Source: Zobellia galactanivorans (lineage in GTDB: Bacteria > Bacteroidota > Bacteroidia > Flavobacteriales > Flavobacteriaceae). From it: a DNA stretch of 64,000 nt. The notes beneath the pieces are model-generated. The model saw nothing but the letters and a program-made list of their open reading frames with translations, ran no database searches and was not told where the DNA came from. The translations under genes and the position numbers were made by a program. The stretch spans positions 2,724,501 through 2,788,500 of the forward strand of contig NC_015844.1 of the NCBI RefSeq assembly GCF_000973105.1, in the 5' to 3' direction. Shown piece after piece: positions 25,103 through 51,629 of this stretch. Numbering within the stretch: the stretch's first letter is position 1; each line of letters starts with the position of its first letter.

Positions 25103-26176
25103 CTATTCTACCCCTCCTTTAACGCTGTCTTGCCATTCTTTTAGCTCGTCCCATTTGCCATCGGCAGCCATTTTGGCTTGCTTTGGCCATGAGGTAGGAT
25201 CTAAATGGGCCATTCTAGAGCTGGCCTCGTTCAAGATTTCCTTGATTTTTTCAGGGTCACCTTCGGCTAATTTAGCGTAAGAATCAAAGCCGGCGTTTAC
25301 CAAAGCTTCTGCGGCTTTTGGGCCAACACCTTCTATTTTGGTAAGGTCAACGGCCTCTGCTGGGGCTTCCGTAGCGGCAGCTGGGGCTTCAGCTACTGGA
25401 GCTTCAGCTTTAGGAGCTTCTGCGGCAGCTTTTTTAGGCTGCTCTTTTTGGGTTTCTTCAGCGCCCTCTTTGTCTGCTTGTTTTTCGGATTTACGTTCGG
25501 CCAAGCCTTCTGCGATAGCATTGGTTACTTGCGTCATGATAATATCGATAGATTTTGAGGCATCATCGTTAGATGGAATCAAATAATCGACATCTCTTGG
25601 GTCGGAGTTGGTATCGACCATTGCAAAAATAGGGATGTTCAATTTTTGGGCTTCCTTTACCGCAATGTGCTCACGCATGGTATCGATGATAAACAAGGCG
25701 CCAGGTAGACGGGTCATGTCGGAAATAGAACCTAAGTTCTTTTCCAATTTGGCACGAAGACGGTCTACTTGAAGACGTTCTTTTTTAGATAAGGTCATAA
25801 ACGTACCGTCTTTTTTCATACGGTCGATAGATGCCATTTTCTTTACCGCCTTACGGATGGTAACGAAATTGGTCAACATACCACCGGGCCATCTTTCTGT
25901 GATGTAGGGCATGTTTACGTTCGCTACTTTTTCGGCAACGATGTCCTTTGCTTGTTTTTTTGTGGCTACGAAAAGAATTTTTCGTCCAGATGCTGCAATC
26001 TTCTTGAGGGCCTCATTGGCCTCATCTAATTTTGCAACAGTTTTGTAAAGGTTGATAACGTGGATACCGTTACGCTCCATGTAGATGTAGGGCGCCATGT
26101 TAGGGTTCCACTTTCGTGTAAGGTGGCCAAAATGCACACCAGCTTCCAATAATTGTTTTACTTCGACTTTCGCCAT
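25103..26176 (-). CDS. rpsB: Ribosomal protein S2 with C-terminal helix-hairpin-helix extension
   Basis: A 357-residue S2, about 100 residues longer than usual. Residues 1 to about 229 are a normal S2 (LLEAGVHFGHLTRKWNPNM, FVATKKQAKD, RWPGGMLTNFVTIRK, PGALFIIDTMREHIAVKEA, DTNSDPRDVDYLIPSNDD). Then comes an acidic, Ala/Pro/Glu-rich linker (about 230-275) and a separate C-terminal domain (276-357) starting DLTKIEGVGPKAAEAL, which looks like a helix-hairpin-helix (H3TH-like) fold. The same kind of domain ends ActC in this window. The S2 part is part of the 30S subunit; the tail's role is unknown. A 260-bp region upstream contains three hairpins. tsf follows. Confidence 0.96.
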   Translation of the reverse strand: MAKVEVKQLLEAGVHFGHLTRKWNPNMAPYIYMERNGIHVINLYKTVAKLDEANEALKKIAASGRKILFVATKKQAKDIVAEKVANVNMPYITERWPGGMLTNFVTIRKAVKKMASIDRMKKDGTFMTLSKKERLQVDRLRAKLEKNLGSISDMTRLPGALFIIDTMREHIAVKEAQKLNIPIFAMVDTNSDPRDVDYLIPSNDDASKSIDIIMTQVTNAIAEGLAERKSEKQADKEGAEETQKEQPKKAAAEAPKAEAPVAEAPAAATEAPAEAVDLTKIEGVGPKAAEALVNAGFDSYAKLAEGDPEKIKEILNEASSRMAHLDPTSWPKQAKMAADGKWDELKEWQDSVKGGVE

Positions 26177-49877: not shown

Positions 49878-51629
49878 ATGGCGTCGCATTACGAAGCACC
49901 TATTCGAAAGCCCTTAGTTGTCGGGGATAAAGGTTACCACGATGTTAGTGTGGACATCTCTGCCCCCGTAGAAGGAAGGGCCAATAAGCATTGGTGGATT
50001 GTGTTTTCCATTGCCTTGGTAGCATTCCTATGGGGTGTAGGTTGTATCATTTATACCGTATCAACAGGTATTGGAACTTGGGGATTGAACAAGACCGTTA
50101 ACTGGGCTTGGGATATTACAAACTTTGTATGGTGGGTAGGTATCGGTCACGCCGGTACGTTGATATCCGCGGTACTTTTATTGTTCCGTCAAAAGTGGAG
50201 AATGGCCATTAACCGCTCTGCGGAGGCTATGACCATCTTCTCGGTGGTACAAGCGGGACTTTTCCCGATCATACATATGGGACGTCCTTGGTTGGCGTAC
50301 TGGGTATTGCCTATTCCGAACCAATTCGGTTCGCTTTGGGTGAACTTTAACTCTCCCTTGCTTTGGGATGTGTTCGCGATCTCTACTTACCTTTCCGTAT
50401 CCTTGGTTTTCTGGTGGACAGGTTTGCTTCCCGATTTCGCCATGATACGTGATAGGGCGGTACTTCCTTTTCAAAAGAAAATATACAGTCTATTGAGTTT
50501 CGGATGGAGTGGTCGTGCAAAAGACTGGCAACGTTTCGAAGAGGTGTCTTTGGTATTGGCCGGTTTGGCAACGCCACTTGTACTTTCCGTACACACCATC
50601 GTATCTTTTGACTTTGCTACTTCGGTAATTCCTGGATGGCATACAACGATTTTCCCTCCATACTTTGTGGCAGGGGCTATCTTCTCCGGATTTGCCATGG
50701 TGAACACGCTTTTGATCATTATGCGTAAAGTGTGTCATCTAGAAGCTTATATAACCGTTCAGCATATTGAATTGATGAACATCGTAATCATGATTACAGG
50801 TTCTATCGTAGGTTGTGCTTATATTACAGAGCTCTTTATGGCTTGGTATTCAGGTGTGGAGTACGAACAATATGCCTTCTTGAACAGGGCTACGGGGCCT
50901 TACTGGTGGGCCTACTGGTCAATGATGACTTGTAACGTGTTCTCCCCACAGTTCATGTGGTTCAAAAAATTACGTACCAGTATCATGTTCTCTTTCTTTA
51001 TATCTATTGTCGTGAACATAGGTATGTGGTTCGAACGTTTCGTGATCATCGTTACATCTTTGCATAGGGATTACCTTCCATCATCTTGGACGATGTTCTC
51101 TCCTACCTTTGTCGATATCGGTATCTTCGTGGGTACGATAGGGTTCTTCTTCGTATTGTTCCTGCTTTATGCTAGAACGTTCCCCGTGATTGCACAGGCA
51201 GAAGTAAAATCTATTTTGAAATCCTCAGGCCAACGTTACAAAGATCTTAGGGATGCAGGTAAGCCATTGTATCAGATAAAAAAGATGGATGCCTCAAAAA
51301 TAAAGGAAGCTGTTATTACGGATGATGTGTTGATGGGAGAGGTTGTTCCTCAAAAAGATGCTAGTGAGAGCGTATCCGAGCTTTTGAGTACTATCGGTAC
51401 TTTCGATGCGACCAAGGAAACGGCTGACGACCTTAAGCAAATTAAGGGTGTTGGACCTCAAATGGAAGCTACCCTTAATGAAATCGGTATCTTCACTTTT
51501 GCCCAGGTGGCAAGAATGACCGCTAAGGAATACGATTTGTTGGATTCAATTACCGAATCTTTCCCAGGTAGGGCACAACGAGACGATTGGGCCGGACAGG
51601 CAAAATTATTAAATAACAAGAAACAGTAA
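49878..51629 (+). CDS. actC: Alternative complex III subunit ActC (NrfD-like) with a C-terminal helix-hairpin-helix extension
   Basis: A 583-residue inner-membrane subunit, NrfD-like, with about ten TM helices (about residues 35-445), including WWVGIGHAGTLISAVLLLFR and HTTIFPPYFVAGAIFSGFA. It is the likely quinol-oxidising, proton-path subunit. After the last helix a charged linker (about 450-515) leads to a domain at 516-583 starting ADDLKQIKGVGPQMEATLNE and ending DDWAGQAKLLNN, homologous to the tail of ribosomal protein S2 in this window. This extension is not part of the NrfD core. actD starts 2 bp after the stop. Confidence 0.95.
   Translation: MASHYEAPIRKPLVVGDKGYHDVSVDISAPVEGRANKHWWIVFSIALVAFLWGVGCIIYTVSTGIGTWGLNKTVNWAWDITNFVWWVGIGHAGTLISAVLLLFRQKWRMAINRSAEAMTIFSVVQAGLFPIIHMGRPWLAYWVLPIPNQFGSLWVNFNSPLLWDVFAISTYLSVSLVFWWTGLLPDFAMIRDRAVLPFQKKIYSLLSFGWSGRAKDWQRFEEVSLVLAGLATPLVLSVHTIVSFDFATSVIPGWHTTIFPPYFVAGAIFSGFAMVNTLLIIMRKVCHLEAYITVQHIELMNIVIMITGSIVGCAYITELFMAWYSGVEYEQYAFLNRATGPYWWAYWSMMTCNVFSPQFMWFKKLRTSIMFSFFISIVVNIGMWFERFVIIVTSLHRDYLPSSWTMFSPTFVDIGIFVGTIGFFFVLFLLYARTFPVIAQAEVKSILKSSGQRYKDLRDAGKPLYQIKKMDASKIKEAVITDDVLMGEVVPQKDASESVSELLSTIGTFDATKETADDLKQIKGVGPQMEATLNEIGIFTFAQVARMTAKEYDLLDSITESFPGRAQRDDWAGQAKLLNNKKQ

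Follow-up and report, generated by a model that had tools for sequence, protein, structure and literature searches.

What does a helix-hairpin-helix (HhH) domain do at the end of a ribosomal protein? The question is raised by the rpsB-type open reading frame at positions 25103-26176 (minus strand) of the window, by which we mean the whole stretch of 64,000 nucleotides from contig NC_015844.1 of Zobellia galactanivorans that was analysed. The frame encodes a uS2 of 357 amino acids with no internal stops and, by reading of its neighbours, has rplM and rpsI upstream and tsf (EF-Ts) directly downstream. Residues 9-224 match Pfam Ribosomal_S2 over model positions 1-216 of 216, and the protein is also a member of the full-length S2 family TIGR01011, with a score over the cut-off. 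Behind this ordinary body the reading frame continues as follows:

25502-26176, minus strand: ordinary S2 body of uS2, residues 1-225 (PF00318, 1.7e-90; TIGR01011, 5.2e-90)
25352-25501, minus strand: Ala/Pro/Glu/Lys linker, residues 226-275, predicted to be disordered from about residue 238 and hypervariable
25103-25351, minus strand: predicted C-terminal HhH domain, residues 276-357 with the stop codon (HHH_5, 1.3e-10; structural model; purifying selection)
25301-25336, minus strand: HhH hairpin core IEGVGPKAAEAL, residues 281-292, whose G, G, P and K columns are invariant in two alignments
25112-25198, minus strand: second half of the domain PTSWPKQAKMAADGKWDELKEWQDSVKGG, residues 327-355, the subfamily marker, with W, Q, L and Q invariant in both alignments

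The order of S2 body, low-complexity linker and HhH-type C-terminal domain had been proposed in a sequence-only reading of this DNA, and profile matches and models bear it out; the bases 25103-25351, which that reading had given to the domain, do encode residues 276-357 plus the stop codon. Neither a sequencing frameshift or assembly artefact, which could have joined two genes into such a protein, nor chance explains the fusion, because many genomes share the architecture: the fetched loci yield 47 distinct uS2 proteins that have it, from the genera Zobellia, Maribacter, Muricauda, Arenibacter and Robiginitalea. Length alone is no marker: uS2 open frames run from 242 to 356 amino acids among about 150 listed in a scan of 296 Bacteroidota genomes, and other long uS2 tails are without the HhH domain. 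We suggest, and give about an even chance to the idea, that the tail is a portable, tethered HhH docking module that takes ribosomes to a common partner, probably a protein.

Fold and conservation of the tail

The tail is predicted to form a folded HhH-type domain. Pfam HHH_5 matches uS2 residues 277-314 above its gathering score of 27 bits, with 42 bits (1.3e-10) for the tail alone and 38.1 bits (2.1e-9) in the whole protein, and it is found in all 57 aligned domains. Modelled alone from a 57-row alignment, the domain has six helices (mean pLDDT 81.9, pTM 0.64). The model of full-length uS2, built with 31 close relatives, is poorer overall (mean pLDDT 67.9, pTM 0.47, with values under 50 in parts of the S2 body), with a pLDDT of 34 over residues 241-270 and of 86-91 over residues 281-350. 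The G.GPK hairpin is kept, and its glycines are invariant in both alignments. The second half of the domain, with W..QA and a later L...Q, lies outside the HHH_5 match, which ends at residue 314. The Zobellia tail belongs to a subfamily in which a helix pair with W..QA comes after the HhH, and which it shares with the tails found on protein-O, NuoE, L21 and phasin.

Relatives by sequence or structure are the HhH regions of RadA, Pol beta, topoisomerase V, DNA polymerase theta and NusA, and archaeal eL32. The nearest folds by VIA are those of DNA polymerase theta, RadA and NusA, at Z scores of 6-9 that are middling on the VIA scale; Foldseek returned no match under 0.001 for the domain model, so the structural neighbours rest on these VIA scores. 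A special likeness to the H3TH of flap nucleases had been suggested from the letters alone, and no H3TH family is among the matches listed, although absence there proves nothing. The tail has no match in the phage collection, with weak PHROGs only (best 0.0038), and PADLOC gave no match that would link it to defence.

The three parts of the fused protein vary very differently. Across 37 full-length proteins (666 pairs), mean pairwise identity is 0.92 in the body, 0.37 in the linker and 0.76 in the domain, and the gapped fractions in the same proteins are 0.002, 0.35 and 0.004. Pooled pN/pS is 0.03 in the body, 0.32 in the linker and 0.11 in the domain, over 13 close pairs that were picked by hand, two of which share a member and one of which is nearly identical. 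On these comparisons the uS2-borne HhH domain is under purifying selection and the linker is hypervariable. The linker is also long, with a mean of 59 residues (range 18-112) on uS2 and of 36 (range 13-66) where the domain sits on bL21.

Carriers of the domain

The genome of Z. galactanivorans (5,521,712 bases) holds four copies of the domain: on uS2, on bL21, on a membrane-anchored protein of 187 amino acids that by reading has a hydrophobic start and then a coiled coil, and on an NrfD/ActC-like protein. Within the genome the S2 tail is 55% identical to the L21 tail and 37% identical to the membrane copy, while the nearest named tail in the scan of named genomes, from Zobellia barbeyronii, is 91% identical.

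A family set of 60 genomes from 59 genera, taken as Flavobacteriaceae from the names of relatives, gave 57 strong matches (profile E under 1e-30), namely 9 on uS2, 28 on bL21 and 20 on the membrane protein; uS2 and bL21 were assigned by coordinates, and 17 of the 20 membrane proteins were read, the other three (G001, G026 and G032) being assigned by frame length alone. Both ribosomal copies occur together in six genomes, uS2 alone carries the domain in three (G018, G032 and G056) and bL21 alone in 22. Because 25 of the 60 genomes are without a ribosomal or membrane copy at the strong cut-off (some of them incomplete, some with an NrfD/ActC copy), the domain is not generally needed, a point against the docking module.

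The wider scan found matches at 1e-4 in 47 of 296 Bacteroidota genomes. By number of genomes, the strong ribosomal matches there fall on uS2 (5), bL21 (11), bL27 (3), bL17 (2), bS1 (2) and uL16 (1, the weakest of them at 2.9e-17); the best 80 of 511 loci in the named-genome scan contribute one further bS16 and three of bL17. Seven ribosomal proteins of both subunits, uS2, bL21, bL27, bL17, bS16, bS1 and uL16, thus carry the domain at the C-terminus; they were identified by reading the proteins, and Pfam backs at least one example of each. It is unusual for one small domain family to occur on seven such highly conserved proteins of both subunits, and this points to a ribosome-linked need beyond a single site. 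Among the strong non-ribosomal carriers, membrane proteins are numerous; the others are NrfD/ActC-like proteins, two AMPK1_CBM-type proteins (one of them checked) and one AMP-binding enzyme. More diverged carriers are under-counted because the profile was built from uS2, bL21 and membrane copies, and weak rows on varied proteins with a diverged HhH (e.g. L199, L200 and L271) were left out of the counts.

With ribosomal and membrane copies in one genome, the copies might simply pair with each other and so cluster ribosomes, the membrane protein and respiratory complexes at the inner membrane. The membrane copy is indeed found in 16 of the 31 genomes with a ribosomal copy and in 4 of the 29 without (Fisher p 0.0025), and an OmpA-like gene in the fetched flanks of most membrane-copy loci would fit such a location. 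Nevertheless, 15 of the 31 genomes with a ribosomal copy are without the membrane copy, the copies within one genome have diverged as described above, and in the 8 independent pairs on the uS2 tree the association is absent (median p 1, with too few informative pairs to weigh much either way). We consider self-association quite unlikely. Docking to the membrane copy in particular, attractive as that partner would be, finds no support in the independent pairs, the raw p value notwithstanding. As for the neighbourhood of the membrane-anchored protein, the OmpA-like gene adjoins it at L003:278-1782 (G000:C1 near 1765000), and an OmpA-like frame lies inside the fetched flanks at 34 of 44 loci.

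The bL21 tails offer a second pattern. Among the 60 bL21 genes of the family set, 28 carry the HhH domain, 22 carry Rho_N in its place (loci L207 and L272 are examples of such bL21), one (G042) carries a divergent HhH subtype and nine carry neither (G048 is a fragment; in G016 and G033 the protein stops just behind the body). Rho_N is a family separate from the HhH domain, with weaker HeH/LEM and SAP matches. The two tails occur together on bL21 in none of the 60 genomes, and all three genomes in which only uS2 carries the HhH domain have Rho_N on bL21. A weakly resolved uS2 tree requires bL21 tails to have changed at least 16 times from HhH to Rho_N or back, and this swapping at one place of bL21 amounts to a natural experiment.

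On the history of the fused uS2 the trees allow some room, since they are poorly resolved (starred inner branches: 21 of 170 in the domain tree and 5 of 65 in the uS2-body tree). A quick domain tree, cut from 183 to 177 rows by excluding six membrane rows with E above 1e-25, groups 43 uS2 tails, while the other four (L027, L147, L154 and L160) fall beside a bS16 tail and a bL21 tail from Saprospiraceae (supports 90 and 78). Forcing all 47 uS2 tails together improves the likelihood, and the test does not reject this arrangement (p 0.62). The uS2-body tree, built from 43 fused and 25 plain proteins, needs two changes and likewise does not reject a single clade (p 0.62). On these grounds the idea that uS2 gained the tail twice was dropped. 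As neither tree rejects one clade, the simplest reading, though no proof, is that the tail may have arisen once, in the branch of Zobellia, Maribacter, Muricauda, Arenibacter and Robiginitalea.

These histories bear on the idea that the tail is a neutral or self-spreading decoration, added where exposed C-termini tolerate it and moved by recombination, with no job on the ribosome. The carrier ribosomal protein differs between lineages and bL21 tails have switched repeatedly, as decoration would predict. Yet the uS2 copy is held by purifying selection relative to its linker, and a single fused-uS2 clade that is not rejected is what one expects of an inherited and kept tail; decoration is, in our judgement, very unlikely.

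A proposed tethered module and its partner

We return to the docking module. Its flexible linker would tether the folded HhH domain to the ribosome, and the domain would recruit the whole ribosome to a common partner rather than work at one ribosomal site; action at one site appears improbable because the carrier varies by lineage and because the linker is long. The sequence-only reading had tied the function to the place of S2 near S1, and this is weakened by the presence of the domain on bL21, bL27, bL17, bS16, bS1, uL16 and membrane proteins. On the docking reading, loss of the tail would spare basic translation and change the position of ribosomes or the factors that travel with them.

The nature of the partner is less sure. 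The net charge of the uS2 domains is negative in 47 of 47 cases (mean -5.0, range -11 to -1), and the bL17, bS1 and uL16 copies range from -7 to -15; bL21 copies (mean -2.7) and membrane-protein copies (mean -1.0) reach maxima of +4. The acidity of every uS2 copy argues against general binding of RNA or DNA. NusA provides a parallel, as its C-terminal acidic repeats are likewise HhH units that end a protein belonging to a large machine; they lie at Z 6.4-6.7 by VIA, although their sequence match to the uS2 tail is weak (0.016). The C-terminal repeats of NusA bind proteins. Since every uS2 copy is net acidic and these repeats are among the neighbours of the domain, a protein would be the favoured partner.

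The main competitor is that the HhH contacts mRNA, rRNA or nucleoid DNA, holding mRNA or placing ribosomes near DNA. The domain is after all of HhH type with an invariant G.GPK hairpin, its sequence relatives include RadA, Pol beta, topoisomerase V and archaeal eL32, and its bL21 and membrane copies are not all acidic. Rho_N is usually regarded as a nucleic-acid fold, so that its appearance at the same place of bL21 in 22 of 60 genomes, with its weaker HeH/LEM and SAP matches, favours an RNA or DNA reading. Against this stand the charges given above and carriers such as the NrfD/ActC-like proteins, NuoE and phasin, which do not suggest RNA or DNA. Hairpin and Rho_N together make nucleic acid a rival to be taken seriously, even if we regard it as somewhat unlikely. 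Of the original suggestion that the tail may bind mRNA, rRNA or a partner, it is the partner that makes the best reading, while mRNA and rRNA are unproven; that interpretation is partly supported, right about the HhH type and too narrow in scope.

Relatives in other complexes

A second subtype of the domain is found within the window itself, on the NrfD/ActC-like protein:

49878-51629, plus strand: NrfD/ActC-like membrane subunit that bears a divergent domain copy (NrfD PF03916, 2e-18; tail by profile and NCBIfam models)
51402-51626, plus strand: the divergent domain copy at the C-terminal end of that protein (NCBIfam tail matches)

NCBIfam models that hold relatives of the domain are those for S2, L21, NuoE and phasin, and the NrfD/ActC tail matches the tails of all four (NuoE 9.9e-23, L21 6.6e-15, phasin 3e-14, S2 1.7e-13). 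The tail is kept in 20 of 20 fetched family relatives of the protein; the weaker profile rows with frames of 575-609 amino acids number 29, of which 20 were fetched, the window's own was read and 8 are outside the count. A first assignment of these matches of about 580 amino acids to DNA polymerase X was dropped, as the proteins read as NrfD/ActC-like.

The S2 model is NF008966 (PRK12311; 30S ribosomal protein S2, 334 positions), which likewise joins an S2 body to a tail of the same domain family and presumably describes Alphaproteobacteria. Zobellia uS2 aligns to its positions 6-328 and the NrfD/ActC tail to positions 262-332, yet with 276.4 bits against a cut-off of 526 the Zobellia protein falls outside the PRK12311 equivalog, and its tail is of the other subtype. 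The S2 "sunset domain" variant (NF051451) is, to judge by the model name, a uS2 that likewise has a domain added at its C-terminus; Zobellia uS2 scores 255.4 against its cut-off of 710, and we take the sunset domain to differ from the HhH tail.

The best sequence relative in the PDB is the RC-LH1 protein-O of Dinoroseobacter shibae (8yy9), the same domain by profile at 4.9e-11, which sits on a photosynthetic complex whereas the uS2 domain sits on the ribosome. According to its published description, the C-terminal domain of protein-O follows a long flexible loop, is invisible in the map, and resembles the C-terminal ends of an endonuclease, of NuoE and of ATP synthase subunit E, with functions called obscure (PMC12079452). 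What the domain does would also be relevant to NuoE and protein-O in other bacteria, whose tails are unexplained. More broadly, we speculate that in Bacteroidota the domain could be a general address tag that brings ribosomes and respiratory, photosynthetic and storage-granule proteins to a common hub. If this reading, which we consider unlikely, were true, ribosomes and energy complexes would share a spatial organiser.

The literature searched, which covered few subscription papers and in which bL21 is also a strain name, yielded no description of a uS2 or bL21 with a fused HhH domain, and the accessible parts of PMC10931766, PMC9976891, PMC5620080 and PMC8459023 make no mention of a uS2 tail. 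The multi-carrier pattern is therefore undescribed in that literature, yet models of tailed S2 and L21 are already in NCBIfam. As a source of ideas, uS2 is placed at the dimer face of the Staphylococcus aureus 100S particle and among the sites of RNA polymerase on the ribosome (PMC5620080). The nucleic-acid rival would operate in a phylum, Bacteroidota, that is reported not to use Shine-Dalgarno pairing (PMC10931766).

For other phyla, NCBIfam and plasmid records contain the sister subtype. The Haloferax larsenii plasmid NZ_CP078064.1 has a weak match (4e-3) at 81681-81839, under an annotated PhaC polyhydroxyalkanoate synthase, which may be compared with the phasin match. Three records of Riemerella anatipestifer filed as plasmids (NZ_CP081938.1, NZ_CP081932.1 and NZ_CP072187.1) include a gene annotated as rplU (bL21) whose product ends in the HhH tail, and these may be misfiled pieces of chromosome.
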